This document shows, one piece after another, positions 14,720-64,000 of a stretch of DNA of 64,000 nucleotides. Location: NCBI GenBank assembly GCA_030613055.1, contig JAUWMR010000014.1, forward strand, positions 1 through 64,000, read 5' to 3'. A program made the translations under genes and the position numbers. Positions within the stretch are counted from its first letter, which is position 1; every line of letters begins with the position of its first letter. The notes beneath the pieces were generated by a model. The model searched no databases and was not told the DNA's origin. It saw nothing but the letters and a program-made list of their open reading frames with translations. The DNA comes from Desulfobacteraceae bacterium (GTDB taxonomy: Bacteria; Desulfobacterota; DSM-4660; Desulfatiglandales; Desulfatiglandaceae).

Positions 14720-14721
14720 TT

Positions 14722-17943: not shown

Positions 17944-18000
17944 ATTTCCTCCTCTCGTTTCCTCGATAAAGGGTGTCGTTTCAGATCGCCCCGCTGCAGG

Positions 18001-41578: not shown

Positions 41579-41878
41579 GGTTTCCTCCTCAAAGTTAGTT
41601 CGCTTCAATCCCTCGCCGCTGAAACAGCGGGGAGAATAATAGAATAATGGAACGGTGGAAAATAGGGTAAAAACCGGAACATTCAAATAGTTATACAAAT
41701 TCCGAGATGTTAAGTCAACTACCACCCCAAAAAGGGATGGCTTAATAAATAGCATTCTGAAAGGATGTTGTTGAAAAACGAACAACCTGTCATTGCGCGA
41801 AGTACCGAAAGCTTTCGGGACGACGAAGCAATCCCCCACTTTAGAGATCATGAGATTGCTTCGCTTCGCCCCGCCCCA

Positions 41879-44038: not shown

Positions 44039-44548
44039 ATGCTGGATAATGAGTCCAGAGATGAATTATTGGACAAGATTGAAAAGGCGGCACACGATTA
44101 TGAAAGGGATTTTCATGGTTGTTCAAGGTGTGTGTTAAAGCCGCTGCAAGACCATTTTGATCTTGGAAATGATGCGAGTCTAAAGGCATCGACCCCCCTG
44201 GCTGCTGGCGTTGCCATGCGCGGAGAGACATGTGGGGCCCTTTTGGGGGGATTGTTGGCCGTGGGCATTGCTACTGCAAGCGAGGAGTTTAAAGATACCG
44301 ATGCTCTGACGAATTCACTTGCTTCCGGGTTCAGGTTAGCGAGAATCGTTGAAAAGGAGTTCGGAACCACGAACTGCACAAAGATACAAACGGAAAAATT
44401 AGGGGTGTTCTACAGTCTTGCCGACCCGGAACAGTACAAGGCATTCATCGAGGCAGGTGGTTACAGAGAGTGTTCTAAAGTCGTTGGTAAAATCGCCAGA
44501 ATGACGGCGGAGTTCATCCTGGACTATAGGGACAAAATGGCCGGGTAA
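44039..44548 (+). CDS. C_GCAxxG_C_C family redox protein, short form
   Basis: 169 residues. Cysteine pattern: GCSRCVLKPLQDHF near residues 28-41, MRGETCGALLGGLLAVG about 60-76, GTTNCTKIQ and GGYRECSKVVGKIA. Same family as 40910-41578 but without the long N-terminal coil. AAAGGAGGG precedes ATG 44039. It lies between the acyl-CoA dehydrogenase and the core-MetE-like gene. Probably cytoplasmic. Confidence 0.82.
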   Translation: MLDNESRDELLDKIEKAAHDYERDFHGCSRCVLKPLQDHFDLGNDASLKASTPLAAGVAMRGETCGALLGGLLAVGIATASEEFKDTDALTNSLASGFRLARIVEKEFGTTNCTKIQTEKLGVFYSLADPEQYKAFIEAGGYRECSKVVGKIARMTAEFILDYRDKMAG

Positions 44549-47838: not shown

Positions 47839-49299
47839 ATGGCTCTAATGACACCGGAACAATTTGAAGAAAGCTTGAAAGACATTAAACCGAGGGTCTT
47901 CATGAACGGTAAAAGGGTGGAAAACGTCCTTGAGAACAAAAACACCCGAACCGTTGTTGAGGCCAACAAGGCCAGCTATGAATGGGCCCTGGATCCTAAG
48001 TATAAGGATATTATGACATGCTATTCGCCGCTCATTGATGATGTGGTCAATCGTTATACTTATGTCAGCGCGAGCAATGAGGACCTGGTGAAAAAGGCCA
48101 ACGCAGGGACCTTCACCGCAGAAATGTTAGGTACCTGTATATACCGTTGCGTGGGGTATGACGCCTTTCATTCCCTGGCCGCCACAACGTGGGAGATGGA
48201 CAAGGATCTGGGCACGAAATATAATCCCCGATTCCTTGAATATTTAAAGATGGTGCAGACAAAGGACCTGTCCGTGGCCGGCGCCCTGACCGAACCGAGG
48301 GGGAGCCGGAGCAAGAAGACCTTAGACTGGAAGGATCCCCTTCTCTCCCTGAAAATAGTGGACAAAAACGATGACGGAATTGTAGTTAAAGGGGCCAAGA
48401 TCAACATCAGCGGCGCCTATGCCAGCCACGAAATGGTTGTATTGCCCCAGGCTGCCCATTTCAAGGGAGAAGAAGATTATGCCGTGGCATTTGCCACGCC
48501 CGTTGATGCCAAGGGCATTACCTTTGTGTGCCAGTACACCCCCTTCTCCGCTGAAAGGGATCTGGCTGATGATCCGGAGGAATTAGGCAATCCGCTTTAT
48601 GGCCAACGCGAGACCTCCATGGTGATCTTTGATAATGTCTTTGTCCCCTGGGACAGGGTGTTTCACTGCGGCGAGTACAAATATTCGGTAAAGCTTGTGA
48701 CCCGTTTTGCCAGGACTCATCGTATGACTTGCGGTGGGACCTGTAAGGTAGGTTTTATGAATCAGATCATAGGGGCCTCAAAACTGATTCAGGAATACAA
48801 GGGCCTCGAGAAGGCCACTCATATCAACGAGGAACTGGCCGAAATGGTGGTTTTAAGGGAGACAGGCCGGGCCTGCGGTCTGGCGGCTGCCCACAGAGGC
48901 AGTGAACAGCCTAAGGGTTCGGGCGTGTTTTTGCCTGATGAATTAATGGGTAACGTTTCCAAGCTCAATGTCTGCAATGCCTTCTGGCGGGTCATGGCCT
49001 TGGCCGGAGATATAGGCGGAGGTCTTATTGTTACCCTGCCCTCCCTTAAGGAGCTTAAAAATCCTGAGGTCAAGGATTATGTTGAGGAATTTTACAGCTT
49101 TGGTTCTGATGAACCCACGGAAAACATCATGAAGGTGCACAAACTCCTTCAGAACTGGACGGCCGGGCTTCATGGTGTTGGAACCTGGCACGGGGCCGGA
49201 CCGGTCATGGCCCAGAAGATTATGCTCCAGCGTGTTATTAATTATGATCATGAGAAGGAGCTGGTTAAGCGGACTCTAAATCTCAAGGAAAAAAAGTAG
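47839..49299 (+). CDS. AbfD-family protein, paralogue 3 with altered active site
   Basis: 486 residues. The family fold and length are kept, but the signature residues differ: GTCIYRCVGYD retains C-x3-C yet has Tyr for the Gln of AbfD, HRMTCGGTCK has one extra residue and Cys/Thr in place of the Tyr, and the C-terminal active-site segment reads GTWHGAGP, without the Glu of paralogue 1. The flavin-binding core (VPWDRVFHCGEY) is normal. It is therefore probably not a 4-hydroxybutyryl-CoA dehydratase. AAAGGAGG precedes ATG 47839. It follows a TetR gene and precedes a UroD-family methyltransferase by 86 bp, so it likely works with that pathway. Confidence 0.83.
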   Translation: MALMTPEQFEESLKDIKPRVFMNGKRVENVLENKNTRTVVEANKASYEWALDPKYKDIMTCYSPLIDDVVNRYTYVSASNEDLVKKANAGTFTAEMLGTCIYRCVGYDAFHSLAATTWEMDKDLGTKYNPRFLEYLKMVQTKDLSVAGALTEPRGSRSKKTLDWKDPLLSLKIVDKNDDGIVVKGAKINISGAYASHEMVVLPQAAHFKGEEDYAVAFATPVDAKGITFVCQYTPFSAERDLADDPEELGNPLYGQRETSMVIFDNVFVPWDRVFHCGEYKYSVKLVTRFARTHRMTCGGTCKVGFMNQIIGASKLIQEYKGLEKATHINEELAEMVVLRETGRACGLAAAHRGSEQPKGSGVFLPDELMGNVSKLNVCNAFWRVMALAGDIGGGLIVTLPSLKELKNPEVKDYVEEFYSFGSDEPTENIMKVHKLLQNWTAGLHGVGTWHGAGPVMAQKIMLQRVINYDHEKELVKRTLNLKEKK

Positions 49300-49385
49300 C
49301 GCCTGAAAAGGCAACCGGATACTCGGGAAGGAGAAAGTGCTTCTCCCGGGAGCAGATGGGAATTTTGGAGCAAGGAGATTTGCAA

Positions 49386-50423
49386 ATGGAAGAATACACA
49401 GGAAGAAAACGCGTTTCGGCAGCTTTTAAAAAGACCTTTACCGATCAAAAGATCGAGGTTGACAGGATTCCCGTTTATCCCATTATGGGACAGTGTAACG
49501 CCCAGCTCGTAGGGGCCTCCATCAGGGAGTTTATATTAGACCCCAAAGTTTTTGTGAAGGCCCAGGTGGCAGCCTATGAACGTTTCAAACCCGATATTAT
49601 TGTCATGCAGGGGGATCTGCTCATGGACGTGGAGGCCATGGGCAATGAACTCAAATTTCCCGAAAACGGCATGTGCATCTCCAAAAAGATGGCGCTGGAA
49701 GACAAGGGTAAATTGAGCAGCCTTAAACTTCCGGATCCAACAAAAGATGGTCGCATGCCCGCCTATTTAGAGGTCTTGGCAGAGACCAAAAAAATAATAA
49801 CAGATTCCATTGTATCAGCAGTTGTTGCCGGCCCATGGACGACAGCCATAGGTCTCAGGGGAGCCAATGAACTCATCAGGGATGCCCTCAAGGATCCTGA
49901 CTATGTACATGAACTAATGCAGTTTTGCTCTGAGATGGCCATCAGGTTTATGGAGGCCATTATGCCGCTGAAGGTGGGGCTCAGTTACTCTGAGGCACCT
50001 GCATCATGCAGCCTTATCTCCCCCAAGATGTACCGCGAATTTATCTTTCCCTATCATAAGCGAATTATAGACTACTTCAAGGAAAGGAAGGCGGGTATTG
50101 GGCTTCATATCTGCGGATATACTGACCCCATCCTTGAGGATATGGTTAATACAGGTGTTACCAATATCAGTATTGACGCACCGTCGGATCTGGCCAAGGC
50201 GGTGGAGGTAACCAGGGGCAAGGCGGTCCTCATTGGTAATGTCAATACCAACCTTTTCTTTTCCGGAAGCAAAGAAGATATGAAACAGGCAATAAAGAAT
50301 TGTCTTGATGTGGCACCTCATGACAGCGGGTATATTCTGGCCTCGGGTTGTGAGGTGCCGGGCATTGCTCCACCGGAAAGGGTTGACTGGTTCATGGAAT
50401 TGGCTAATGAGTTGGTCCATTAG
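49386..50423 (+). CDS. UroD-family corrinoid methyltransferase (MtaA/MtbA-like) 1
   Basis: 345 residues. (beta/alpha)8 fold of the uroporphyrinogen decarboxylase superfamily; the zinc site of methylcobamide methyltransferases is visible as HICGYTDPI (about 240-248) and ASGCEVPGIAP (about 322-332). True UroD active-site residues are not apparent. AAGGAG stands 8 nt before ATG 49386. Co-directional with AbfD-like paralogue 3. It could transfer a methyl group between a corrinoid protein and a thiol or methoxy substrate. Confidence 0.82.
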   Translation: MEEYTGRKRVSAAFKKTFTDQKIEVDRIPVYPIMGQCNAQLVGASIREFILDPKVFVKAQVAAYERFKPDIIVMQGDLLMDVEAMGNELKFPENGMCISKKMALEDKGKLSSLKLPDPTKDGRMPAYLEVLAETKKIITDSIVSAVVAGPWTTAIGLRGANELIRDALKDPDYVHELMQFCSEMAIRFMEAIMPLKVGLSYSEAPASCSLISPKMYREFIFPYHKRIIDYFKERKAGIGLHICGYTDPILEDMVNTGVTNISIDAPSDLAKAVEVTRGKAVLIGNVNTNLFFSGSKEDMKQAIKNCLDVAPHDSGYILASGCEVPGIAPPERVDWFMELANELVH

Positions 50424-51150: not shown

Positions 51151-51234
51151 TCACAACTCTCAGATGTCGGAACTCACACAGTTCATATATTCACTTTTTT
51201 CTTTTTGTATTCGTGCATTAGTAGCTTAATAGTT

Positions 51235-52013
51235 ATGGAATTTTTTAATATGCCCGAAATTGGTTCTCCTCTTTTTTGGCTAATCATGTTCCTGGTCATG
51301 GTTGGCAGCTTTGTCTCCGCTTCGGCCGGCTTCGGTTTTGCCATTGTTCTTGTGGCTGCCCTTCAATTCTTCATGCCACCTGTTGAACTTGTGGGACTGA
51401 TAATCGTTCTTGGTTCCGTGGGGGCAACCCTACGGGTAATAGAAACCAGAAAAATAACGAGCTGGAGGAGATCACTACACTTTGTTATTCCGGCTTTCTT
51501 TGGTGTTCCCTTAGGGGTGGCTGTTTTAAAATATCTTGACCCTCTTTTGATGAAAAGGTATTTAAATCTTGCCCTTTTGGCAGGTGTATTAATGTTTTGC
51601 CATATAGTATAAACAGCCGGCAACAATTGCGGTTTAAGGCCAAACAAACGGGAAGAGTAATTGAGCATTTAGTTGGTCTTTTAAGTGGAATTTTAGGTGG
51701 TTCTTGTACCTTATCAGGCCCACCAATTGTTATGTGGTGCGTTCTTAAGGGATGGAAAAAGATTGAAATGCATGCTGTCTGGGCGAGATTCTTTTTCTCA
51801 ATTGCACTCTTTTCTTTGCTTAATCTAAGTATTAACGGTATGTATAATCGTGTCACTGTTATTTTTTCACTTTTTCTGATTCCTGCGGTTTTTCTTGGTT
51901 TCAAAACTGGTACCTGGATCAGGGACAGGTTTACAGAAAAGCGGCTCCGTCTTTACGTCCTAACATTTCTTTTCCTGTCCGGGCTAACCGGATTTGCACT
52001 TTCGTTTACTTAA
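51235..52013 (+). pseudogene. TauE/SafE-family transporter, frameshifted
   Basis: The first frame starts at ATG 51235 (MEFFNMPEIGSP) and reaches LLAGVLMFCHIV before TAA 51610. The second overlaps it, reads SINSRQQLRFKAK, and continues through HLVGLLSGILGGSCTLSGPP, the second TauE repeat motif, to TAA 52011. Together they make one 8-helix sulfite/organosulfonate exporter or anion permease of about 259 residues. A one-base change near 51590-51600 separates them; no slippery signal is seen. Either inactivation or a sequence error. Confidence 0.75.
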
Positions 52014-52208: not shown

Positions 52209-52237
52209 TTGACAATATATATTCTATATAATATATT
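52209..52237 (+). promoter_or_regulatory. Sigma70-type promoter for gntR
   Basis: TTGACA (52209-52214), 17-bp spacer, TATATT (52232-52237), in a very AT-rich context; about 75 bp before the TTG start. The gap 52014-52310 holds no other feature. Confidence 0.6.
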
Positions 52238-52310
52238 ATATAAAATAACTAATACTTAGTGATTCACAACCAGAAGCCCGAATCCAATTCTTGATAAAGG
52301 AGATAGTAAA

Positions 52311-52997
52311 TTGCCCCTACTTCCTAATATTAATGAAGAAGTGCCTTTTACTAAGCCGAAGTCGGTTGTTGAGACGGTAGCCGACTATTTGCGTGAATCA
52401 ATTGTTAATGGGATATTAAAACCCGGAGAAAAAATTAGTAATACCGAAACTTGTGAAAAGTTAGGCGTAAGTAGCATTCCGTTCAGAGAGGCTTTGAGGA
52501 TTTTAGAGAAGGAGGAGTTAATCATTGCTTATCCGGGTAGAGGGAGCTGGGTGGCAGGTGCATCTCAAAAAGACCTGGAAGAAACATTTGAAATCAGAGA
52601 AATGTTAGAGACATTTGCAGTGGATCTAATAGAAAGGGGTGAAAAAGCCGATAGCGATATTAAAATGAAACTTAAATCCATAGCCATTGATGAAGAAACC
52701 GCGCTCACAGGCCCGGAAGGTTGTGTTAGCTTTCATGATTTTCTTGTCCAATTGGCTGGCAATACTAAGTTAAGTTACGCCTATTATATGACGTTTAACA
52801 ATATTCGGCGTTATCAGAGGTTAGCTTACAGGATTCGTCAAGAGGAAGGATTACTTGTTAAAGAGCATGTTAAAGAGCATTTAGAAATCCTTGAAGCACT
52901 CATCACTGGAGATTATAAGGAAGCTAAATTGTTAATTAAAGCCCACCTTGAAAAATTGCAGGACATGCTTTTAGAGCAGGTTGAATTTTCTGATTAA
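52311..52997 (+). CDS. GntR family (FadR/FCD-type) transcriptional regulator
   Basis: 228 residues. Winged HTH of GntR type (VADYLRESIVNGILKPGEKI, then EKLGVSSIPFREALRILEKE), followed by an FCD all-helical ligand domain with metal-type His residues (SFHDFLVQLAGN, HVKEHLEILEAL). Starts with TTG 52311; AAAGGAG lies 8 nt upstream. Regulators of this class respond to organic acids or sugar acids. As the first gene of a co-directional unit, it probably controls the whole block to the window end. Confidence 0.9.
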   Translation: MPLLPNINEEVPFTKPKSVVETVADYLRESIVNGILKPGEKISNTETCEKLGVSSIPFREALRILEKEELIIAYPGRGSWVAGASQKDLEETFEIREMLETFAVDLIERGEKADSDIKMKLKSIAIDEETALTGPEGCVSFHDFLVQLAGNTKLSYAYYMTFNNIRRYQRLAYRIRQEEGLLVKEHVKEHLEILEALITGDYKEAKLLIKAHLEKLQDMLLEQVEFSD

Positions 52998-53035
52998 CAA
53001 CATTTTTTTTGCAATTTGTGGGAAGGAAACTAACA

Positions 53036-54070
53036 TTGGGAAAAAAAGAAATGACTTCTTATGAAAGGATTATGACAACCTTAGAAGGAGGTAAGCCGGA
53101 TCGAGTCCCGACGCTTCTATTCATGCGGGATTGGGCCACGAAATCTGCCGGGTTTACATTTTCTGAAGTACTTGAAAATCCAAACAAGTATGTCTACGCC
53201 CAATACAGGGCATTGAGGGATATAGGTGCTGATGTGATCTGGGACCTTATGGGTTTTCATTCGGAATCGGAAGCCATGGGTTCTGTCCTGAAAATTCCGG
53301 AGGATGGTCCCCCATCGGTAGCCGAATTTACAGTTAAGGACCTGTATAAGGATGTAAAAAAGCTTAGACTTCCTAATCCGCACAAAGACGGACGGCTCCC
53401 GGAATTGTTAGGTGTAGTCCGACGCCTTAAAGAGTTAGTTCGGGATGAAGTCCCCGTTATTGGTTATGTGCAGGGGCCCTTTCGACATGCCGCAATGCTG
53501 CGAGGAACTGAGAAATTATTGGTGGATATGAAGAAACATAGAGATCAGTGCGAAGAATTATTAGAGATTGCAACGGATAGTCTGATCCTGTATGGAGCAG
53601 CCCTTGTTGGTGCTGGTGCGGATTTGATTATGATCGCGGAACCGTATCTCGGGAGAGATATGATGTCAAAAGACATGGCGGTGGATCTTGCAACGCATTT
53701 TACGCGACTCACGCAAACCTTGAGGAAGACCGGCGCCAAAATATTTCTGCACCTTTGTGGAGATTTTAATGACATGTTTGACACTATTAAAGAAATGGGC
53801 ATGCATGGCGTAAGCCTTGACGAAAAAAATGATCTGGCCAAAGCCCGAGAGATCATGGGACCTGAAATATGCCTGATCGGCAATGTGAATCCTACGGAGA
53901 CACTTGTTTTCGGTACACCTGAGAAGGTCATAAAAGAGTCAAAGGAATCCATTAAAGCGGCAGGCAAAGACGGGGCATTCATTTTGGCCTCGGGCTGTAT
54001 GATTCCCGAGCTTGCACCAAAAGAAAATTTAGAAGCCATGATACAGGTTGCAAAAGAGAGCAGATATTAA
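53036..54070 (+). CDS. UroD-family corrinoid methyltransferase 2
   Basis: 344 residues from TTG 53036, with GGAAGGAA 7 nt upstream; ATG 53051 (MTSYERIM) is the alternative. Zinc-type motifs: HLCGDFND (about 238-245) and ASGCMIPELAP (about 322-332). The sequence is closer to the MtaA-like class than to true UroD. A separate methyltransferase of the same family is encoded at 61607, so the unit has two different ones, perhaps methyltransferase I for the substrate and a second for another acceptor. Confidence 0.8.
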   Translation: MGKKEMTSYERIMTTLEGGKPDRVPTLLFMRDWATKSAGFTFSEVLENPNKYVYAQYRALRDIGADVIWDLMGFHSESEAMGSVLKIPEDGPPSVAEFTVKDLYKDVKKLRLPNPHKDGRLPELLGVVRRLKELVRDEVPVIGYVQGPFRHAAMLRGTEKLLVDMKKHRDQCEELLEIATDSLILYGAALVGAGADLIMIAEPYLGRDMMSKDMAVDLATHFTRLTQTLRKTGAKIFLHLCGDFNDMFDTIKEMGMHGVSLDEKNDLAKAREIMGPEICLIGNVNPTETLVFGTPEKVIKESKESIKAAGKDGAFILASGCMIPELAPKENLEAMIQVAKESRY

Positions 54071-54095
54071 AAACTAAATCAGGAGGGAGACAAAC

Positions 54096-54518
54096 ATGAT
54101 TAAAAAGCACTTTACTGATGTTGAGACAATTGACAGTAAAAAAGAAGGGTTTAAGGGAATGCAACAACGCTTCATCTGGTCAAAAGACGATGGTTGCCCG
54201 CGTTTTGCAATGCGGATGATGGAGTTCGAGCCCCATGGATATACCTCTTACCATGCCCATCTTGAAGAGCACCAGTTTTTCTTTCTTGAAGGCGAACCTG
54301 CATTTGTCGATGCAGAGGGCAATGAGATAAGACTTGAGGTGGGCAATACAATATATGTTCCGTCTGATGAACCGCACCAGATTAAGAACGTGGGTGACAC
54401 GGTAATGAAGATGCTCTGTATGATCCCGATTCTTCCGGGCGGTGACGGGAAGGCACCTGCCCCCCGTCCTGATGGTCAAGACTATGTGACCAAAGAAAAA
54501 CCATCGGGGAAGTGTTAA
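54096..54518 (+). CDS. Cupin-domain protein
   Basis: 140 residues with one cupin barrel. Motif 1: YHAHLEEHQFFFLEG (His, His, Glu, His pattern about residues 49-63); motif 2: VPSDEPHQIKNVG. AGGAGGGAG stands before ATG 54096. Metal-binding cupins of this size are enzymes (isomerases, dioxygenases) or small-molecule sensors. It lies between the methyltransferase and aconitase X. Confidence 0.8.
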   Translation: MIKKHFTDVETIDSKKEGFKGMQQRFIWSKDDGCPRFAMRMMEFEPHGYTSYHAHLEEHQFFFLEGEPAFVDAEGNEIRLEVGNTIYVPSDEPHQIKNVGDTVMKMLCMIPILPGGDGKAPAPRPDGQDYVTKEKPSGKC

Positions 54519-54674
54519 TATACATCGAAATTCTATCCCGCCAAGGCGGGAGACTCATTGTGCTTTTAGCAGCATTTTATTTGATGCCATCAATCCAATG
54601 CTCTAATTGGGGCAAAGCTCTTAAGTTCAAATTTTATACAGAAATTTCCTTTCTTGGAGTCCTGTAGGGGGAGA

Positions 54675-54712
54675 AAGCGGGACGTTTCATAAAATCACGA
54701 AAGCGATTTTAT
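54675..54712. repeat. Hairpin repeat (copy 2) upstream of aconitase X
   Basis: ATAAAATC (54689-54696) and GATTTTAT (54705-54712) form the stem. The whole stretch AAGCGGGACGTTTCAT onward is a near copy of 27231-27267. The 54519-54785 gap contains this hairpin and otherwise nothing recognised. Confidence 0.55.
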
Positions 54713-54785
54713 CACCTGAAAAAGAGGGTTTCCTTCGATAACCGACATCCGCGAGGAGAGGAGCTTTAACGAGGGAGGACCTAAG

Positions 54786-56039
54786 ATGATTTTAACTAAA
54801 GAAGAAGAGGCAATGGCTAGGGGACAATATGGACCCGGACTTGAGAAGTGCATAAACCTCCTTATCAAATTCGGAGAAGTCTTTAATGCAGAAAAATTAG
54901 TCAAAGTTTCAAGTGCGCATGTTTACAGTGCTTTTCCTTTGGATCTTCTCATGGAGTTGACCGAAGGGGCGAACCAATCAGGTGCCTTTACAACTATCCA
55001 TCCTTTCATGTCCCTTTCCGATCCACTATCTTGGGAAAAAATGGGCATCTCAAAAGATCATGTCACACCCTTAAATAGAGAACATGAAAAAAAAGTGGAA
55101 ATCTACAACCGTTTGAGCTTTTTTCGAACTTATACATGCGTTCCAATGCTGGTAGGAAACTTTGTAAAAAAAGGAGATTTTATTTCATGGTTTGGTAGCT
55201 GCCCTCAATTACTCGCCAATTCCATAATTGGGGCAAAGCAAAATCGAGACGGGGCCGTTGTCAATATGGCCATAGCTATTACAGGTAAGGCACCTTACTG
55301 GGGACTTTTTTTAGATGAAAACCGTTCCGCTGAAATCCTGGTTGAAGTCGAAGACTCAGATTCAGAATTATTGACAACAACAGATTATGGCGCCATCGGA
55401 CATTATGTTGGAGGGATAGCAAAAGATAGAAATATCGTAATAAATGGCTTGAATAGAAACATAACCTTGGATGAAATGCATTATCTTCTACCGCCTCTCT
55501 CAGCCACAGGCGCAGTAAGTTTATGTCATATTGTTGGGGTAACACCAGAAGCGCCTGATCTTATAACTGCTTTAGGTAACAAGCCCCCAAAAGAGACGAT
55601 CCATATCGGGAAGGAAGAGATCAGTCGAGCAAAGGAAGAGTATTCGACGCCTGAATCCGAAGAGATTGATCTTGTTATACTCGGCTGTCCACATTGCACC
55701 ATTCAAGAGCTGAAACAGGTGGCGTTCTTGTTAGAGAACAAGAAGGTCGGCACCAATCAAAGATTATGGATTGGTACGGCTCAACAAATCTACAATTTAG
55801 CTCAAACCATGGGTTATTCTCAAATCATTGAGAAGGCAGGTGGTCTCATTTCGAGATCTTGTATGTCAGCTGTCCCGGATTGTCCTATTCCCGATGATAT
55901 AAGAATAATCGCGACAAATTCTTTTAAGACCGCCCATTATATATCTACATTTTCAAAGGGTCGTAGGAGGGTCGTTATAGGTGACCTTGAAGACTGCATA
56001 AATGTGGCTATAAATGGAAAATGGGAGGTGGGAGACTAA
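54786..56039 (+). CDS. Aconitase X catalytic subunit (AcnX large, DUF521)
   Basis: 417 residues of the AcnX family, [Fe-S] hydro-lyases such as cis-3-hydroxy-L-proline dehydratase and mevalonate 5-phosphate dehydratase. Family start LTKEEEAMARGQYGPGLEKC, ligand cysteines in LGCPHCTIQEL (about 299-310) and SRSCMSAVPDCPIPDD (about 357-372). AGGACC-like purines and GGGAGGACC precede ATG 54786. The gene ends overlapping the small subunit start (TAATG), so the heterodimer is translationally coupled. Exact substrate not evident; a hydroxylated acid or hydroxyproline is the family default. Confidence 0.88.
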   Translation: MILTKEEEAMARGQYGPGLEKCINLLIKFGEVFNAEKLVKVSSAHVYSAFPLDLLMELTEGANQSGAFTTIHPFMSLSDPLSWEKMGISKDHVTPLNREHEKKVEIYNRLSFFRTYTCVPMLVGNFVKKGDFISWFGSCPQLLANSIIGAKQNRDGAVVNMAIAITGKAPYWGLFLDENRSAEILVEVEDSDSELLTTTDYGAIGHYVGGIAKDRNIVINGLNRNITLDEMHYLLPPLSATGAVSLCHIVGVTPEAPDLITALGNKPPKETIHIGKEEISRAKEEYSTPESEEIDLVILGCPHCTIQELKQVAFLLENKKVGTNQRLWIGTAQQIYNLAQTMGYSQIIEKAGGLISRSCMSAVPDCPIPDDIRIIATNSFKTAHYISTFSKGRRRVVIGDLEDCINVAINGKWEVGD

Positions 56040-56440
56040 TGAAACTTAGAGGGAGAACAGTAAACACGGGCAACGTTGAAGCAGAGGCTATTGTTTTGGA
56101 ATCTTCCTTTTCGTTTACGGCTGATTTTGATCCCGATAATGGAAATCTCGTAATTAGGGGCCATCCGCTGCACGGTGAGAAGATAGCCCAAAAAATACTG
56201 GTCATTCCAGCGGCAAAGGGTGCAGTTAATGCCTCTTTGATGCTGTATAAGGCAAAAAAAATGGATAACGCTCCATTGGCAATATTATGTCGCAGTGTAG
56301 ACCCTATAACCGTAGAATGTGCCATGACAGTGGATATTCCACTGATGGATTCCTTTGATAAGGACCCAATTAAGACAATTAAGACAGGTGACTACATAAG
56401 GGTTTTGGGTGAAAAAGGGATTGTTGTTGTTGAAGATTAG
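56039..56440 (+). CDS. Aconitase X swivelling subunit (AcnX small, DUF126)
   Basis: 133 residues. Matches the swivelling domain that closes over the AcnX active site. It begins MKLRGRTVNTGNVEAEA and has the loop IPAAKGAVNASLMLYKA, where most relatives carry a Gly-Ser-rich G-x-G-S-x-x-G-S catalytic loop; here only the last Ser remains. That could mean altered substrate use. ATG 56039 overlaps the large-subunit stop and GGGAGGTGGGAG precedes it. Confidence 0.85.
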   Translation: MKLRGRTVNTGNVEAEAIVLESSFSFTADFDPDNGNLVIRGHPLHGEKIAQKILVIPAAKGAVNASLMLYKAKKMDNAPLAILCRSVDPITVECAMTVDIPLMDSFDKDPIKTIKTGDYIRVLGEKGIVVVED

Positions 56441-56603
56441 CTAACTCCTGAGCTAAGCCGGTAATACTGACTGAAACTTGTAACGTAATAACAATTTGCA
56501 TTATTAATTGTGCTTATTTTGGGATAGTAGCATTTTAGACATATGGGATAATAGGACAAATAGATAGAATCTTTTCAGTCAGGACTGCTTTAGGATGTTT
56601 CAT

Positions 56604-56948
56604 ATGGAAGTGAATCGGTCGGTTGAAAAAATTTCCTGGGTATCCCATCCCACCGCCCAAGGGGTGAAGATCAAACCTTTGATCACCAATAAAGAACATG
56701 GCCTGGATGTGACCTGTATGCTGGTTAATGTCCCGGCCGGAGAAGAAGTGCCTGAACATATTCATGAGGATCAGGATGATATACTATACCCTCTGCAAGG
56801 AAGAGCGGTTATGTGGGTGGATGGGACCGGGGATTTTTCTCTGGAACCTGGCATCATTGTAAGAGTGCCAAAAGGGATAAAACACAAAATCGTTGATGTT
56901 ACAGAAGATTTGTTGATCTATGACGTGTTCTGTCCCGCACTTATGTAA
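56604..56948 (+). CDS. Cupin-domain protein 2
   Basis: 114 residues from ATG 56604, with TTTAGGA 8 nt upstream; ATG 56595 is too close. Cupin motif 1: VPEHIHEDQDDILYPLQG (His, His, Asp pattern) and motif 2: VRVPKGIKHKIVDV. Single-barrel cytoplasmic protein. Not closely similar to the first cupin of the unit. Possibly a sensor or an isomerase in the same pathway. Confidence 0.78.
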   Translation: MEVNRSVEKISWVSHPTAQGVKIKPLITNKEHGLDVTCMLVNVPAGEEVPEHIHEDQDDILYPLQGRAVMWVDGTGDFSLEPGIIVRVPKGIKHKIVDVTEDLLIYDVFCPALM

Positions 56949-56997
56949 AGTGGGGTGCTTTAACATAAATTAACATTTAACAAGAAAGGGGGATAAA

Positions 56998-58176
56998 ATG
57001 AAAGCACAAAGGTTTTATCGTTTTGTGGCCGTGGCATGTATTGCGTTGTTAATTGCATTTGCGTCAGCCATTCCAGCAGCAGAGGCAGGACTAAAAGGAA
57101 AATCAGTAAAGGTGGGAGTGATTGTTCCCTTAGCCGGTCCGGCCATATCCTGGGGCCAGCATTCATTATTAGGTGCTGAGATTGCCCGAGATGAGATCAA
57201 TGCGGCAGGTGGAATCGGTGGTATTCCCCTGGAGTTGATAGTTGAGGATACGGCCAGCAAGTCTGACCAGGCTATTTCTTTGGCAAGAAAATTAGCTGAA
57301 CAGGATAAGGTGCTGATTATCCTTGGCCCCATCTTGAGCTCTGCCTGTGAGATGGTCTTTCCTGTGACCAACCGGATGAAGATCGTTGCGGTCTCACCGA
57401 CCTCTGCCAAACCTGGAGTGTCCGCAAAAAACCGTCCCTGGGCATATCGAAACAATCTAACCAGTGACAAGACCCTCGGCCCGGCCTTGGAAAAATGGGT
57501 TAAGGATAACAATATCAAAAAGGCAGGGATTATCTATGACAGCTCCGATGCTGTTTCCACCGGTGAAGGGGCAAAGGTTTATCCAGCCTTTTTTAAAAAA
57601 TTTGGGGTAGAGATCGTGGACTCGCTAACGGTTCAGAAGAAGGACATAGATTTCAGCGCTCATATAACCCGGATTAAGGCCAAAAACCCTGACGGCGTAG
57701 CCTTAGCCGCTCAGGCAGAGCAGGCTGCCAACATAGTGCGTGAAATGCGACGGCAGGGTCTCAATATTCCTGTAATTACAGGAGTGGAGTGTGCCAACCC
57801 ATTGTTTATAAGGACCGGCAAGGGCGATGTGGAGGGCGTATGGACTGCGTCTGCATCCTGGGCGGGTAACCCGGATCCTAAGGTGAAGAAATTCGTTACT
57901 AAGTTCATGAAGCGAAAAGACGGTGAAAAGCCAAACAGCGGTGGGTTCAAGTCCTACGACAGCATCTATATCATCAAAGAAATCATCGAAAAGTATGGCG
58001 TGACCAATGATCCCAAGGACCTTTCGAAAGATCGAGATCGGCTGAGGAACGGATGGAAAAACGTTAAAAACTTCCCTGGGGTTTCAGGACTCACAACCAT
58101 TAACGAAGTGGGTGATGGAGTGAGTATGCCCGCCATTCTTTGTGTTAAAAGCGGGCAATGGGTAGCTGCTAAATAG
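56998..58176 (+). CDS. livK: Branched-chain-type ABC importer binding protein LivK 2
   Basis: 392 residues with a signal peptide (RFYRFVAVACIALLIAFASA, cleavage about residue 30, AEAG). PBP type 1 fold with VIVPLAGPAISWGQHSLLGA (ligand-facing start) and EIARDEINAAGGIGGIPLEL, the typical LivK segment. AAAGGGGG precedes ATG 56998. Opens the second importer, arranged K-H-M-G-F. Confidence 0.92.
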   Translation: MKAQRFYRFVAVACIALLIAFASAIPAAEAGLKGKSVKVGVIVPLAGPAISWGQHSLLGAEIARDEINAAGGIGGIPLELIVEDTASKSDQAISLARKLAEQDKVLIILGPILSSACEMVFPVTNRMKIVAVSPTSAKPGVSAKNRPWAYRNNLTSDKTLGPALEKWVKDNNIKKAGIIYDSSDAVSTGEGAKVYPAFFKKFGVEIVDSLTVQKKDIDFSAHITRIKAKNPDGVALAAQAEQAANIVREMRRQGLNIPVITGVECANPLFIRTGKGDVEGVWTASASWAGNPDPKVKKFVTKFMKRKDGEKPNSGGFKSYDSIYIIKEIIEKYGVTNDPKDLSKDRDRLRNGWKNVKNFPGVSGLTTINEVGDGVSMPAILCVKSGQWVAAK

Positions 58177-58284
58177 CGAAAATGAATGAAATTTTCTTAT
58201 AGACTGGTTTTGATTATTACTCAAAGGGAAATGATAAGGAAGTCTCCTATTCAACCTGCATAATAAAGGCTACCGTAACGAAAT

Positions 58285-58341
58285 GGGCCGAGGGAGAGAA
58301 AAGCGCAAATCATTCCGCAGAAAGGATTCCCCCCTCGGCCC
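58285..58341. other. 10-bp stem inverted repeat between livK2 and livH2
   Basis: GGGCCGAGGG (58285-58294) and CCCTCGGCCC (58332-58341) pair perfectly over a 37-nt loop. No T-run follows on the plus strand, so a 3' mRNA stabiliser for livK, which is normally made in excess over the permease, is the likelier use. Confidence 0.5.
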
Positions 58342-58359
58342 GAAAAAGAATGGTGATCT

Positions 58360-59229
58360 ATGTTCTTTCAACAACTCATCAATGGATTGATGCTGGGGGC
58401 TACCTATTCCCTCGTGGCCATCGGTTATACGCTGATCTTTGGTATTTTGAACTTACTTCACTTTGGTCATGGAGAGGTCTTCATGATCGGAGCTTTTATC
58501 GGCCTGCAAATGGTCCTGCTTACAAACTGTCACATCGTCATTGCAATTTTGGGATCCATGGTTGGAGCTGCACTGTTAGGTTTGATCATTGAGAGGGTAA
58601 GCTTTCGCCCGATAAAAAAAGAATATCATCTTGCGCCTCTGATTAGCACCATCGGGGTCAGCATTATTCTCCAGGAAATCGGAACCAGGATCTTCGGCGG
58701 GGATATAGTGGGGTTCCCCAAGACCATCCGGCTCGTGATTTATAAAATCGGTCCTGTACAGGTGACCTCTGTTCATCTCTTTATTTTGGCCTTTGCCCTT
58801 ATGCTTATGATTACAATCCATTTATTTATTCATAGAACAAAAGTGGGAATCGCTATGCGGGTCACTGCTGAAAATGCAACAAATGCCTCACTGATGGGGA
58901 TTAATACAAACAGGATCGTCTCCATGACCTTTATGATCAGTTCTGCCTTAGCAGGGGCTGCCGGGGTCCTTGTAGGGCTCGTCTATAATGCCGTCTCTCC
59001 CTTTATGGGGACAGAGATGATACTAAAGGGATTTACCATAATGTTGCTCGGGGGACTCGGGAATGTGATGGGAGCAATGATCGGTGGAATCATTCTTGGG
59101 TTGATGGAAGTATTCAGTGTAGCCTATTTGGCTTCCTCTTATAAAGATGCATTTGCCTTTGGGATCATGATCATGATTCTGATTTTTAGGCCAACGGGCC
59201 TTTTCGGCACCAGGCTTCATGAGGAATAG
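58360..59229 (+). CDS. livH: Branched-chain-type ABC importer permease LivH 2
   Basis: 289 residues, eight helices. FFQQLINGLMLGATYSLVAI opens it; LLHFGHGEVFMIGAF matches the LivH N-H-G motif, and LLGGLGNVMGAMIGGIILG the terminal G-G motif. Starts at ATG 58360 and its end overlaps the next start. Confidence 0.93.
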   Translation: MFFQQLINGLMLGATYSLVAIGYTLIFGILNLLHFGHGEVFMIGAFIGLQMVLLTNCHIVIAILGSMVGAALLGLIIERVSFRPIKKEYHLAPLISTIGVSIILQEIGTRIFGGDIVGFPKTIRLVIYKIGPVQVTSVHLFILAFALMLMITIHLFIHRTKVGIAMRVTAENATNASLMGINTNRIVSMTFMISSALAGAAGVLVGLVYNAVSPFMGTEMILKGFTIMLLGGLGNVMGAMIGGIILGLMEVFSVAYLASSYKDAFAFGIMIMILIFRPTGLFGTRLHEE

Positions 59230-60076
59230 CGTGTTTAGCAGTTACATCGAGAGCATCCTCATATTCAATGGCATTCATATCATCATGGCTTTAAGCCTGT
59301 ATCTTCCTTTTTCCGCCGGGCAGATCTCGCTGGCCCAGGCTGGCTTTATGGCAATCGGCGCCTATGCCTCTTCTGTGATGACCCTATTTTGGGGTTTCCC
59401 TTTTTATATAGCCCTATTTCTTAGTGGACTGCTTTCTGCAATGACCGGAGTGTTAGTAGGCTTCCCTGCGATACGCATCAAGGGGATATACCTCCTTCTT
59501 CTTACCTTAGCCTTCGGAGAGATGGTGAGGGTCTTCTTTCTGAACTTTGAATTTACGGGAGGGGCTTCCGGCATGGGCGGGATGGACTTACAGACAAACT
59601 TTGTCAACGTATACACGATCGTGGCTATCTTAATTATTTTTTTTTACAGGCTTAGTAAATCGAGAATGGGGCGGGCCTTTGAATCCATGCGTGAGGACGA
59701 ATTAGCGGCTGAAGTAATGGGCATAAATATCGTTAAGGCAAAGCTATTAGCCTTTGGAGTAGGAGCCTTCATCGCCGGGCTTGGCGGAGGTTTGTACGCA
59801 CACTACGTTATGTATATCGATTCACCAAAATTCGGGTTTCTCCTCGCAGTAGAGTTCTTTGTTTTTGTAGTTTTCGGAGGAATGGAGATTTTCTGGGGGC
59901 CAATTATTGGTACGACGCTGTTGACGTTAATCCCGGAGGTAGTGCGATTTTTAAAAGAATGGAGAATGATTTTCTATGGTTTGGTGATCGTCGTGTTGAT
60001 GATCGTTCGACCTCAGGGGCTGATAGATAAAAAGCTGGTGGATGACATCACCCGATATGCCAAGAAATTGTTCTAA
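59219..60076 (+). CDS. livM: Branched-chain-type ABC importer permease LivM 2
   Basis: 285 residues, shorter than LivM of E. coli because the N-terminal helices are missing, as is common in environmental homologues. Conserved blocks LPFSAGQISLAQAGFMAIGA and FPAIRIKGIYLLLLTLAFGE. It begins at ATG 59219, overlapping livH2 by 11 bp, so the two are coupled. Confidence 0.92.
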   Translation: MRNSVFSSYIESILIFNGIHIIMALSLYLPFSAGQISLAQAGFMAIGAYASSVMTLFWGFPFYIALFLSGLLSAMTGVLVGFPAIRIKGIYLLLLTLAFGEMVRVFFLNFEFTGGASGMGGMDLQTNFVNVYTIVAILIIFFYRLSKSRMGRAFESMREDELAAEVMGINIVKAKLLAFGVGAFIAGLGGGLYAHYVMYIDSPKFGFLLAVEFFVFVVFGGMEIFWGPIIGTTLLTLIPEVVRFLKEWRMIFYGLVIVVLMIVRPQGLIDKKLVDDITRYAKKLF

Positions 60077-60093
60077 ATGTAAAAGGGAATGAT

Positions 60094-60858
60094 GTGGATT
60101 TTTTGAGTATTGAAAACTTAAGCAAATCCTTTGATGGTGTCACGGCACTGAGACAGGTGGGCTTGGAAGTAAAATCGGGTAAAATCCATGCCTTGATTGG
60201 TCCCAACGGCGCTGGTAAAACGACCCTGTTCAACATACTTTCGGGAATTTTAAAGCCGACACAAGGAAGGATCAGGTTTAAGGGTCAGCAGATAGACGCT
60301 CTCAGGCCGGACAGGATCACTTCCCTGGGTATTGGCCGTACATTCCAGAACATCCGGTTGTTTAAGTCCCTGACGGTTCTTGAAAACGTAATGGTTGGAC
60401 GACATTGCAGGACCCGGACAGGACTAGCCAGGACCTTTTTCAGTTTGCCCTTTAAAAAGCTGGAAGAAGAAATAAACATTCGAGACATGGCAAATGAACT
60501 GCTGCGTTTTGTGAGTCTTTTTGATAAAAAAGAAAGCAAGGCGGCAAGTCTCCCTTATGGTAGCCAGAGAAGATTAGAGATTGCCCGCGCTTTAGCCGCT
60601 GAGCCTCTTTTGTTGTTATTGGACGAACCAACAGCGGGCATGGATACCCGGGAGACAGAGGATCTGGCCGCATTGATTACCAAGATTCGAGATCAGGGAG
60701 TAACCATCCTGCTTATTGAACATGACATGCATCTGGTAATGGGGATCTCGGATGTGGTTACGGTTTTAAATTTTGGAAGGAAGATAGCTGAGGGGCACCC
60801 CAGGGAAATTCAATCATCACCAGAGGTCATCGAGGCTTATCTTGGAGCCCAGGAATAA
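60094..60858 (+). CDS. livG: Branched-chain-type ABC importer ATPase LivG 2
   Basis: 254 residues. Walker A GPNGAGKTT, signature LPYGSQRRLEIARALA, Walker B LLLLDEPTAGMD and IEHDMHLVM switch. Starts with GTG 60094 (an out-of-frame ATG overlaps at 60092); AAAAGGG precedes it. Coupled to livF2 downstream by overlap. Confidence 0.92.
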   Translation: MDFLSIENLSKSFDGVTALRQVGLEVKSGKIHALIGPNGAGKTTLFNILSGILKPTQGRIRFKGQQIDALRPDRITSLGIGRTFQNIRLFKSLTVLENVMVGRHCRTRTGLARTFFSLPFKKLEEEINIRDMANELLRFVSLFDKKESKAASLPYGSQRRLEIARALAAEPLLLLLDEPTAGMDTRETEDLAALITKIRDQGVTILLIEHDMHLVMGISDVVTVLNFGRKIAEGHPREIQSSPEVIEAYLGAQE

Positions 60859-61573
60859 ACAACAGCTACTTAATGTGGAAGAACTGACTACCGGATACGC
60901 GGAAATTGTGGCTTTCCGAGAGGTAAATATTTCTGTCCAGCATGGGGAAATGGTGGCTATTATAGGGGCAAATGGTGCAGGGAAGACCTCACTCCTCCGT
61001 ACCATTACCGGAGTTCTCAGACCGAAAAAGGGAAAGATTAAATTCGATGGAAGGGAAATTCATAACCTTCCTGCATACCAAATTGTGCAAATGGGAATCT
61101 CATGGGTACAGGAAGGCAGGGCTATTTTCAAAAGGGTCACCATCGAGGAAAATCTAAAAGTAGGGGCTTACCATCGTGATAAAAAAGGGATGCTTTCAGA
61201 CATGGAAATAACTTTTGAAAGATTTCCTATTTTAAAGAATCGCCGATCCCAATTGGCGGGCACCCTCAGCGGCGGTGAGCAGCAGATGCTGGCAATCGCG
61301 AGGGCATTGATGAGCCGGCCCAGATTGATCCTCCTGGATGAGCCCTCCCTGGGGCTCGCCCCCCTTATTGTTCAGGATATCTATGGGATTGTTTCCGATC
61401 TCCAGAGTGACGGGATAACCATTTTACTCGTGGAACAGAACGCGAGTATTGCCCTCAAGACGGCCGACAGGGCGTACGTAATGGAGACCGGCCGGATTGT
61501 GATGGAAGGGATGACAAGGGATCTTATGACCGATCCACGGGTTCAAGAGGCATATCTTGGAGGACAACGATAA
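60842..61573 (+). CDS. livF: Branched-chain-type ABC importer ATPase LivF 2
   Basis: 243 residues from TTG 60842, inside the end of livG2. Walker A GANGAGKTS, LSGGEQQMLAIARALMSRP, Walker B LILLDEPSLGLAP, and LLVEQNASIAL switch. Canonical LivF length, with no tail like that of LivF 1. Ends the second importer; the methyltransferase gene begins 33 bp later. Confidence 0.92.
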   Translation: MEPRNKQQLLNVEELTTGYAEIVAFREVNISVQHGEMVAIIGANGAGKTSLLRTITGVLRPKKGKIKFDGREIHNLPAYQIVQMGISWVQEGRAIFKRVTIEENLKVGAYHRDKKGMLSDMEITFERFPILKNRRSQLAGTLSGGEQQMLAIARALMSRPRLILLDEPSLGLAPLIVQDIYGIVSDLQSDGITILLVEQNASIALKTADRAYVMETGRIVMEGMTRDLMTDPRVQEAYLGGQR

Positions 61574-61606
61574 TAGACATTTAATAATTATCATTTAGGA
61601 GAAAAA

Positions 61607-62638
61607 ATGGCACAGATGACTTTAAGAGAAAGGTTCTGGAACCGCTTCACAGGCAAGGATGTCGATATGACCCCTGTGGGAAGCACGACAACCTATGGTG
61701 TTGTAGATCTTATGAAAAAATGTGGCCATGAAAGGCCACTTGCGGATAGAGATCCTGTTGCAATGACCGAACTTGGCATTGCAGGTCATAAATATGCTGG
61801 TTTTGAGTGGGTCAAGGCCATGGGATGGGATATTACGATATTGAGCGAGGCCTTTGGTTGTGAACTCGGCCCTGCCCAGATTGACATCCAACATTTCATT
61901 AAATGTCATCCATACGCTGAAGGCATAGAAAAGCTTGAGTTTCCCTCTGATTTCTTAGAAAGAGGCAGATTTTCTGTCTATAAAGAAAATTACCGGCTTC
62001 TTAAGGAAAAGGTTGGTAATAAGCTTATCATATTTGGACATACGGAAGGAGCCTTTACCTGCGCCGCAAATCTTGTTGGTGTCGAACAGTTCATGAGGTG
62101 GTGTTTTAAAGAGCCCGGGAAGGTTGAAAAGACATTAGAGGTTACAAAGGAGGCAGCAATTGCTGCTGCAAACTTTGCATTTGATAATGGTACTGATTAT
62201 TTTTTATTTGGTGAACCAACAGCAGGACCTGCCCTTCTTAGCCCGAGGTTTTTCAAAAAATTTGTGGAACCTGTTGAAAAGGAAATAGTGAGCAGGATTA
62301 AAGGCCCGGTAGTAATCCATATATGTGGCAATACGGATCCCATAATCGAGATGATGTGCGATACCGGGGTTGTCGGCATCAGCATAGAAGAAAAGACAGA
62401 CATGAAAAAGGCCGTGGAAATTGCCCATGAAAAAGGCGTGAAGGTCTTCGGAAATGTGGCAACCGCAACGACTCTGTTTCAAGGAACTCCCGAGGAAGCA
62501 TATAAGGAGTCTATACAAGCTTTAGAGAATGGAACAGATTTCTTGTGCCCGGGATGTGGTATCGCGCCAAGAAGTCCCCTTGAGAACATAGTACAACTCA
62601 AAAAAGCAAGGGATGATTATTTTAGACCTGCGGGTTAA
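61607..62638 (+). CDS. UroD-family corrinoid methyltransferase 3
   Basis: 343 residues. MtaA/MtbA-like zinc site: HICGNTDPI (about 241-249) and CPGCGIAP near 320. Many conserved Cys/His of methylcobamide methyltransferases; UroD porphyrin residues absent. GGAGAAAA precedes ATG 61607. Follows the importer closely and precedes a flavin reductase and MtrH-family gene, so it probably takes part in methyl transfer from the imported substrate to a corrinoid protein, which is not encoded within the window. Confidence 0.82.
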   Translation: MAQMTLRERFWNRFTGKDVDMTPVGSTTTYGVVDLMKKCGHERPLADRDPVAMTELGIAGHKYAGFEWVKAMGWDITILSEAFGCELGPAQIDIQHFIKCHPYAEGIEKLEFPSDFLERGRFSVYKENYRLLKEKVGNKLIIFGHTEGAFTCAANLVGVEQFMRWCFKEPGKVEKTLEVTKEAAIAAANFAFDNGTDYFLFGEPTAGPALLSPRFFKKFVEPVEKEIVSRIKGPVVIHICGNTDPIIEMMCDTGVVGISIEEKTDMKKAVEIAHEKGVKVFGNVATATTLFQGTPEEAYKESIQALENGTDFLCPGCGIAPRSPLENIVQLKKARDDYFRPAG

Positions 62639-62835
62639 TATTTACCCGCACTTTTTGGAAAGTATGCGAATGCGTAACCTGGGTATTGCCAGGGATCAAG
62701 AAATACTCCAAAAACAAGGGTTTTAAGCTGATTAACGCCTTTGTTGAACAAGGGTCTTATTTGGCCCTATACGGATTTAACCGGATTTGCCATATCCTTT
62801 ACATAAAAATAACTGAACTGTTACGAGAGGAGATC

Positions 62836-63318
62836 ATGGTTGATAACAAACAAAAACAAATAACGGAAGCCTTTAACAGGGGAATTACACTGGGAGTCTA
62901 TATTGTCACCGTGAAAGCAGGTGATAGAATAAATGGTATGACTGCTGCATGGATTTCAAGAGTTTCTCGTACCCCGCCCATGGTAATGGTTTCCATAGGG
63001 CATAAGAGTTATACAAATGAATTGATTAAAAAGGGAGGATACTTTATTGTCAATACCTTAGCACAAGGACAACAGGAGATTGGCAAACATTTTGGTTTTG
63101 TCAGTGGAAGAGATGTCGATAAGTTAAAGGATATCCAATATCTTGAAGGAAAAAGCGGGGGCCCGATCTTGAAAGAGGCAATGAGCTACCTGGAATGTGA
63201 ACTCTTCGATACCTTTACTACAGGAGATCATACCATTTTTATCGGAAAGGTAATCAGTGGAAGGGTTCTTGATGATAGTAAAATTCCACTTGTGTTTCAG
63301 AGAAGTGATTTTTTTTAA
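62836..63318 (+). CDS. Flavin reductase-like FMN-binding protein
   Basis: 160 residues from ATG 62836 with GAGGAGATC immediately upstream; the frame extends back to 62686 but those codons are not family-like. The fold is the FMN-binding split barrel: YIVTVKAGDRINGMTAAWIS (about 20-39) and RTPPMVMVSIGHKSYTN are the flavin-reductase signature. Supplies or receives electrons via FMN; in corrinoid systems related proteins may help reactivate oxidised cobalt, but that role here is inference. Confidence 0.85.
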   Translation: MVDNKQKQITEAFNRGITLGVYIVTVKAGDRINGMTAAWISRVSRTPPMVMVSIGHKSYTNELIKKGGYFIVNTLAQGQQEIGKHFGFVSGRDVDKLKDIQYLEGKSGGPILKEAMSYLECELFDTFTTGDHTIFIGKVISGRVLDDSKIPLVFQRSDFF

Positions 63319-63342
63319 AAAACCACATCTTTTTTATAGATT

Positions 63343-63543
63343 ATGAGTGATGTCCAAGAACAGGAAGTGAAAGCGTATTTTTAAAAGGATTTGCCCAATC
63401 TGGTGGAACATAACTATCAGGTGGCCCTAAGCGTTGTTAAACGCCATTGTTTAATGGGCTCTAAAGGCAAGATCAGTCAAATTGCTACTTCAGAAGAACT
63501 GATGGTGGACAGCGAAATTATTAAAAACACCTTTCGGTGTTGA
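63343..63543 (+). other. Gene-like remnant with in-frame TAA
   Basis: ATG 63343 (MSDVQEQEVKAYF) meets TAA at 63382, after which the same frame continues 52 codons (KDLPNLVEHNYQVALSVVKR, then MGSKGKISQIATSEEL, SEIIKNTF) to TGA 63541. It looks like a short decayed gene between the flavin reductase and the MtrH gene. TAA excludes selenocysteine and pyrrolysine recoding. Family not recognised. Confidence 0.35.
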
Positions 63544-63586
63544 TGGGATAACAAAAATAGCCCGGATAGACAATTAAGGAGGTCTT

Positions 63587-64000
63587 ATGTTTCGATTTGT
63601 TACAGAACAGAAGGTTTGTGAGGTTGGAGGGGTAAAATTCGGTGGGCAGCCGGGCCAGCTTCCTGCCATAGTGGTCTCGTCAATCTTCCAGAAAGGAGAC
63701 AGGGTCTTTGAAGGGGCCAGGCGAAAGGAAGGCTTTAATGAAAAGCGGGCCAAAGAGCTTTTGGAAAAACAGGATAAGATCAGCAGGGAAACCGGCATAC
63801 CGGGAATGGCCGATATTGTAGCCAACACTGGCAAGGAATTTGAGCGGTACATCGATTTTGTGGTCAGCATGAGCAGCATGCCCTTCTGTATCGACGCCTG
63901 GACCATGAAACCCAAGCTGGAAGGAGCCAGGTACTGTGCTGAAAAGGGGCTTTTAGACCGTATGTTTTACAACAGTCTGACCGTGTGGGAGCAGGACCTG
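63587..64000 (+). CDS. MtrH-family methyltransferase (partial at window end)
   Basis: 138 residues visible; the gene runs past the window. The opening FRFVTEQKVCEVGGVKFGGQ, GQLPAIVVSSIFQKGDRVFEG, and then GIPGMADIVANTG and FERYIDFVVSMSSMPFCIDAW are characteristic of the MtrH/methyl-H4folate corrinoid methyltransferase family (pterin-binding barrel). Such proteins serve as methyltransferase II in anaerobic demethylation, moving methyl from methyl-corrinoid to tetrahydrofolate. AAGGAGG stands 6-8 nt before ATG 63587. A corrinoid protein is expected just beyond the end. Confidence 0.88.
   Translation, partial: MFRFVTEQKVCEVGGVKFGGQPGQLPAIVVSSIFQKGDRVFEGARRKEGFNEKRAKELLEKQDKISRETGIPGMADIVANTGKEFERYIDFVVSMSSMPFCIDAWTMKPKLEGARYCAEKGLLDRMFYNSLTVWEQDL

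Follow-up and report, generated by a model that had tools for sequence, protein, structure and literature searches.

Probable corrinoid-dependent demethylation locus of Mto/Mtv kind with an aconitase X variant in a Desulfobacteraceae bacterium: a substrate methylated on sulfur is favoured

What would a bacterium break down with a gene unit in which aconitase X (AcnX) stands among methyltransferases and next to an importer? This question is raised by a 64,000-nucleotide stretch of DNA from a Desulfobacteraceae bacterium (assembly GCA_030613055.1, contig JAUWMR010000014.1), here called the window, which comprises bases 1-64000 of an 82,112-base contig in a genome of 4.26 Mb and 97 contigs, and several genes of which have their closest named relatives in Thermodesulfobacteriota (Desulfobacterota). 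A first-pass annotation had described a unit at 52311-64000, running from gntR through uroporphyrinogen decarboxylase (URO-D)-type methyltransferases, cupins, both AcnX subunits and livKHMGF to an MtrH family gene, and had read it as import of an O- or N-methylated hydroxy acid or hydroxyproline-type compound, its demethylation to methyl-tetrahydrofolate (methyl-H4folate) and dehydration of the residue. Open reading frames and Pfam profiles, with scores far above the curated cut-offs, confirmed all of these genes in their places on the plus strand, although the window holds two corrinoid-type methyltransferase families and not the three announced, URO-D occurring twice within the unit and MtrH once. 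The end at 64000 did not stand, as MtrH is completed on the same strand in the 18 kb of contig beyond it and is joined there by a further URO-D protein, which ends at 70109, and by exactly the two components which the annotation had proposed to look for, a corrinoid protein and a RamA-like (RACE-type) activator. We read the whole as a locus for corrinoid-dependent demethylation, of the Mto/Mtv kind, with a substrate module that sets it apart and, by preference, an S-methyl substrate, and give this reading a probability of roughly 0.6; the complete corrinoid kit together with the AcnX variant suggests an undescribed breakdown pathway.

The core of the locus is a corrinoid demethylation system similar to Mto and Mtv, as a URO-D-type substrate methyltransferase (MT1), a corrinoid protein, an MtrH-family second methyltransferase (MT2) and a RACE activator are found together, which is the composition of MtoABCD (PMC8630106), the methyl transfer steps being predicted. 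MtrH and the corrinoid protein are the sole matches to PF02007 and PF02607 in this genome, and the presence of the acetyl-CoA synthase family provides an outlet for methyl-H4folate. Thus the proposal of corrinoid demethylation coupled to an importer, with methyl-H4folate as product, held for its core components. The NCBIfam equivalog MtgA (glycine betaine) reached 172.9 bits, below its cut-off of 550.

The four URO-D proteins of the locus, UroD_0, UroD_A, UroD_B and UroD_C, all carry a His-x-Cys motif and a distal Cys, together a His-Cys-Cys zinc site, and these motifs align with the same motifs of MtaA (4ay7). Kountz and Balskus observed His-Cys-Cys in S-methyltransferases and altered ligands in O-methyltransferases of this superfamily, which ties the former site to S/Se-methyl transfer (PMC10418091). 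Zinc ligands other than His-Cys-Cys, or loss of zinc, which mark the UroD-type O-demethylases of the MtvB/OdmB/MtoB branch (PMC10418091), were noticed in none of the four. CdmB, which is related to the O-demethylases, reads LSFQGE at the first motif in place of His-x-Cys, and the match of UroD_A to MtaA is far better than that to CdmB. With this site in every one of the four, a thioether or sulfonium, its methyl group on sulfur, is the favoured substrate over the O- or N-methyl compound of the first-pass annotation.

We compared the locus with other loci (L numbers) and genomes (G numbers); the genome counts refer to a phylum sample of 395 genomes and an order sample of 85. UroD_A was found to be rare, occurring in 5/395 (E below 1e-60) and 5/85 genomes (E below 1e-50), nine altogether, and MtrH is present in all nine. 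Leaving out the genome under study, such a co-occurrence would arise by chance in the phylum sample with a probability of 7e-6 when genomes are counted and of 2e-4 when genera are counted, and in the order sample with one of 0.012; these figures treat related genomes as independent, so the genus-level values are safer. Relatives of UroD_A adjoin a cupin, a TRAP or Liv importer and an enzyme that varies, namely a molybdopterin oxidoreductase (L157), a molybdopterin-binding fragment (L201), an FAD oxidoreductase (L197) or AcnX (L062), and homologues of cupin B (44-47% identity) lie directly before UroD_A in L197 and L198. As cupin and importer are shared while the enzyme varies, these two seem to form a substrate module with UroD_A, and AcnX seems to be one among several enzymes that act downstream of it. 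Another type of substrate module was noticed where UroD_A homologues (L155:9353-10791, L156:9410-10889) are paired with C_GCAxxG_C_C redox proteins and DUF6125; the window, too, has two C_GCAxxG_C_C proteins (40910-41851 and 44039-44548). Conserved clustering of AcnX with MtrH, which had been anticipated, was not borne out, as both families are present in only 5/395 genomes (p about 0.03) and a methyltransferase physically linked to AcnX was met just once more, UroD_A with a serine-less AcnX in G196 (L062).

Both parts of the window AcnX match their family profiles, and alignment to TkAcnX (7cnr) showed that the Fe-S cysteines Cys118, Cys301 and Cys359 as well as Lys381 and Tyr385 are retained. 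In the small subunit Ala68 occupies the position of the catalytic Ser, in the large subunit Gly137 that of the conserved Glu, His replaces Asn79 of TkAcnX, and the loop for 5-phosphate binding (48-53 of TkAcnX) is absent. The serine (Ser62(S)/Ser70) has been proposed as general base, and AtAcnX with the S70A mutation is almost inactive; the glutamate (Glu129(L)/Glu292) contacts the leaving hydroxyl (PMC8184944). The residues of a phosphomevalonate dehydratase (AcnX type II) are thereby replaced or missing at all four places, and the two-chain protein, with Ala68 and Gly137, scored 192.5 bits against NCBIfam NF051439, the cut-off of which is 700. Taken together, Ala68, Gly137 and the missing phosphate loop make it unlikely that this AcnX is a hydroxyproline or phosphomevalonate dehydratase, and the dehydration of hydroxyproline or a hydroxy acid, assigned to it at first, is not upheld.

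The window protein is not alone, for it falls with ten others into one clade of 11 AcnX proteins with moderate support (bootstrap 82, SH-aLRT 93), from Borrarchaeota, Thermoplasmatota, Bacillota, Pseudomonadota and Thermodesulfobacteriota. The serine is absent in 11/11, replaced by Gly or, in the window and L034, by Ala, and Gly stands for Glu in all. As the change of Glu to Gly alone is also found in sister clades that keep serine, the loss of serine is the distinctive change; a second AcnX of this genome (contig C84) keeps it. A large protein of GarD/UxaA type adjoins AcnX in 8/11 members (L053, L054, L055, L056, L057, L059, L060 and L062), often with SAF, TRAP and GntR genes; a small SAF protein was detected in six and TRAP importer genes in six. 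The GarD/UxaA-type proteins are at least 69% identical to the copy of L053 or of L055, the arrangement is conserved across archaea and bacteria of several phyla, and we found no described function for the pair of serine-less AcnX and GarD/UxaA-type gene. The only UxaA-like gene of the present genome was considered as the missing partner and rejected, being only 40% identical to the UxaA of the clade and having a SAF protein of its own and a transporter of NMT1 type beside it. It is a speculation of low probability that the clade carries out a new reaction, for example one in which the Fe-S cluster helps to eliminate sulfide, or a different leaving group that is not a hydroxyl, from the thiol formed by S-demethylation; with UroD_A and an NAD(P)H-coupled activator this would make up an anaerobic route, so far undescribed, by which methylated organosulfur acids are broken down.

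For corrinoid activators it is often unclear what donates the electrons in the cell. The activator of this locus carries all domains of the RACE/RACo family and, in addition, 498 residues (339-836) inserted within the RACo middle domain, which make up an NfnL/GltD-like Fe-S/FAD/NAD(P)H oxidoreductase. The insert matches NfnA, formate dehydrogenase-type subunits and small chains of glutamate synthase, and its dinucleotide-binding motifs GSGPAG and GGGSVA are intact. Unfused homologues lack it, and four further activators have it (L147, L148, L165 and L196; 59-91% identity across the inserted region). The predicted structure (pTM 0.45) was too uncertain for use, and we therefore assigned the insert from its sequence alone. 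This architecture points to a direct, NAD(P)H-driven reduction of the corrinoid.

Relatives of MtrH occur in 23/395 genomes of the phylum sample and 30/85 of the order sample, most commonly in the layout LivKHMGF, MtrH, UroD_C, corrinoid protein, RACE, UroD_B; a GlcD-like FAD enzyme and a CCG Fe-S protein often precede this series, and AcnX lies outside it. Neighbours of 437-497 aa in these modules had been suspected to be MttB-type (N-methyl) partners, a suspicion dropped when Pfam identified GlcD-like, CCG and aldehyde dehydrogenase proteins. MtrH and UroD_B of the window are nearest to one version of the module (at most 79% and 81% identity, respectively), and a second version comes nearest to the corrinoid protein, RACE and UroD_C (66-77%; L147, L148 and L165), so that the core looks mosaic. 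The order MtrH, corrinoid protein, RACE, UroD_C is repeated at 95-98% identity in G431, a genome from the same family; that genome is without UroD_A, and its AcnX is only 40% identical and located elsewhere. Upstream in the window, the HpaB-family protein and UroD_0 (47839-50423) have homologues (84% and 87%, and 62-80%, respectively) which are likewise paired and adjoin the MtrH modules of L206 and L208, and because of this the pair probably belongs to the same system.

Combining these results, a methylated small organic acid would be imported by LivKHMGF, and UroD_A, together with UroD_B/UroD_C or followed by them, would transfer its methyl group to Co(I) of the corrinoid protein, as family and zinc site suggest. 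MtrH, going by its family, would pass the methyl group from methyl-Co(III) to tetrahydrofolate, and methyl-H4folate would enter the Wood-Ljungdahl pathway, of which acetyl-CoA synthase is the component that was checked and found. RACE would reduce Co(II) to Co(I) with ATP, with electrons that its observed NfnL/GltD-like module may feed in directly from NAD(P)H. The AcnX variant, an Fe-S enzyme of lyase type devoid of the usual serine base and Glu, would process the demethylated remainder with the cupins, by a reaction that, given the residues observed, is unlikely to be either of the published AcnX dehydrations. GntR would turn the unit on in response to the substrate, and an AT-rich palindrome over a promoter-like site (52209..52246) is a possible operator for it.

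The same genes could be thought to serve O-demethylation, a methoxylated acid (aromatic or sugar-acid-like) being imported and demethylated in the fashion of Mto/Mtv and AcnX acting on the freed hydroxy acid. The component set, which equals that of MtoABCD (PMC8630106), agrees with this, as do the likeness of LivK to binders of aromatic acids as well as of amino acids and the UxaA/GarD neighbours of the AcnX clade, which suggest hydroxy-acid chemistry; we nevertheless hold it to be rather unlikely, since the zinc sites and the nearness of UroD_A to MtaA described above speak for sulfur (PMC10418091) and AcnX is without the base and the Glu needed for elimination of a hydroxyl. Less probable still, in our estimate, are two separate neighbours, that is, a demethylation module general to Desulfobacterota (UroD_B to UroD_C) and, adjoining it, a catabolic AcnX/Liv operon that has nothing to do with it. 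The lack of conserved AcnX-MtrH clustering, the nearly identical core of G431 lacking UroD_A and a close AcnX, and a terminator-like hairpin (62629-62650) right after UroD_B would fit such a division, but UroD_A, closely spaced between gntR and AcnX and in one orientation with them, recurs in linkage with a serine-less AcnX in L062 and is confined to MtrH-bearing genomes, UroD_B starts 33 bp after livF, and the MtrH modules of relatives also stand directly behind livKHMGF.

Several observations weigh against our preferred reading of an S-demethylation locus with its own substrate module. Gaps of 197-319 bp within the unit, together with the hairpin, make two or more transcripts possible, so the unit may be split, although neither terminator-like nor promoter-like sites are more frequent in the region than in shuffled sequence. 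UroD_A was seen linked to AcnX in two genomes, and for most relatives of the window AcnX the vicinity is free of methyltransferases. The S-methyl rule derives from few enzymes and makes O-methyl substrates less probable, no more than that. The AlphaFold model of LivK (pLDDT 70, pTM 0.65, poor domain placement) matched amino-acid, urea and aromatic-acid binders alike and points to no particular ligand.

Table 1. Features of the locus in the window and in the contig beyond it
Feature	Position	Strand	Basis or remark
HpaB-family protein	47839..49299	+	Pfam HpaB_N/HpaB; probable second substrate module on shared corrinoid core
UroD_0, URO-D methyltransferase	49356..50423	+	Pfam 219.7 bits; His-Cys-Cys zinc site
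Promoter-like site TTGACA-17-TATATT with overlapping AT-rich palindrome	52209..52246	+	Consensus scan, palindrome search; weak
GntR/FCD regulator	52311..52997	+	PF00392, PF07729
UroD_A, probable substrate methyltransferase (MT1)	53051..54070, start perhaps 53009	+	PF01208 217 bits
Small cupin A	54096..54518	+	Cupin_2
AcnX large subunit	54786..56039	+	PF04412 356 bits; alignment to 7cnr
AcnX small (swivel) subunit	56021..56440	+	PF01989 81 bits; alignment to 7cnr_B and relatives
Small cupin B	56595..56948	+	Cupin_2
LivK-type substrate-binding protein (type I solute-binding)	56998..58176	+	PF13458
LivH, LivM, LivG, LivF	58360..61573	+	ORF order, length, ABC signatures
UroD_B, MtaA-like methyltransferase	61607..62638	+	Exceeds PRK06252 and TIGR01463 cut-offs
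Flavin reductase-like protein	62836..63318, start uncertain	+	PF01613
MtrH-type methylcorrinoid:H4folate methyltransferase	63587..64537, crosses window end	+	PF02007; PRK00979 subfamily cut-off passed
Corrinoid protein	64609-65289, past window (in L002)	+	PF02607
RACE-type activator, 1148 residues	65309-68755, past window (L002:1809-5255)	+	Fer2, linker, middle, C-terminal ASKHA domains
UroD_C, URO-D protein	69075-70109, past window (in L002)	+	Exceeds PRK06252 cut-off

Some further genes were noticed in the window. Just upstream of gntR a gene for a TauE/SafE-family exporter (51205-52013) is split by a frameshift near 51600, its halves matching the respective halves of the Pfam profile. Three HpaB-like proteins occur in this apparent anaerobe (27285-28745, 38109-39557 and 47839-49299), two of them recognized by sequence resemblance only; the first two lie near a CoA ligase, an acyl-CoA dehydrogenase-like gene and a first Liv importer. 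At 44910-45956 a 348-aa protein without Pfam match, preceded by a C_GCAxxG_C_C protein, has IHCC...SCD motifs that recall zinc methyltransferases of MetE/UroD type, and the minus strand at 9844-18942 carries hydrogenase subunits and HypD/E/F-like maturation proteins, as judged by eye from the translations.

A literature search, with most subscription papers outside its scope, returned no description of AcnX with corrinoid methyltransferases, of methylthiopropionate with corrinoids or of a RACE-NAD(P)H oxidoreductase fusion, which is weak evidence of novelty. A widely spread AcnX without catalytic serine is hereby brought to a point where its function becomes testable with a handful of proteins, and whether a corrinoid activator can be supplied with electrons by NAD(P)H directly, by way of an NfnL/GltD-like module built into it, is a testable question as well. 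If the substrate is a methylthio acid or a sulfonium, the locus would also supply genes for anaerobic methyl-sulfur breakdown in this bacterial group.

Compared with known systems, the locus shares with MtoABCD (Methermicoccus, Archaeoglobus) and MtvABC/Odm a UroD-type MT1, a small corrinoid protein, an MtrH-type MT2 (as in Mto), a RACE-type activator and a nearby transporter and regulator, and differs from them in having several UroDs, all His-Cys-Cys, in AcnX, cupins and LivKHMGF and in the oxidoreductase insert of its activator. It resembles the Type 1 mlp gene clusters (PMC10418091) in composition, with several MtaA-like His-Cys-Cys UroDs, two of which (UroD_B and UroD_C) score above the PRK06252 cut-off, a corrinoid protein and a RACE protein in the same direction; the mlp definition excludes an H4folate methyltransferase within 20 kb, whereas this locus has MtrH. 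TkAcnX (type II phosphomevalonate dehydratase, 7cnr/7cns) has the same two subunits, three Fe-S cysteines and active-site Lys and Tyr, and parts from the window AcnX at Ser62, Glu129, Asn79 and the phosphate loop. The activator matches RACo/RACE (3zyy, 4c1n) outside its insert, in the [2Fe-2S], linker, middle and C-terminal ASKHA domains, and is unlike them in bearing it. Similar to the window, other Desulfobacterota (L131, L132, L137, L207 and others) have modules of MtrH (74-78%), UroD (UroD_B 67-81%), corrinoid protein and RACE with a Liv importer in front; these modules, unlike the present locus, have GlcD-like/CCG enzymes in place of AcnX, cupins and UroD_A, and their RACE is unfused.

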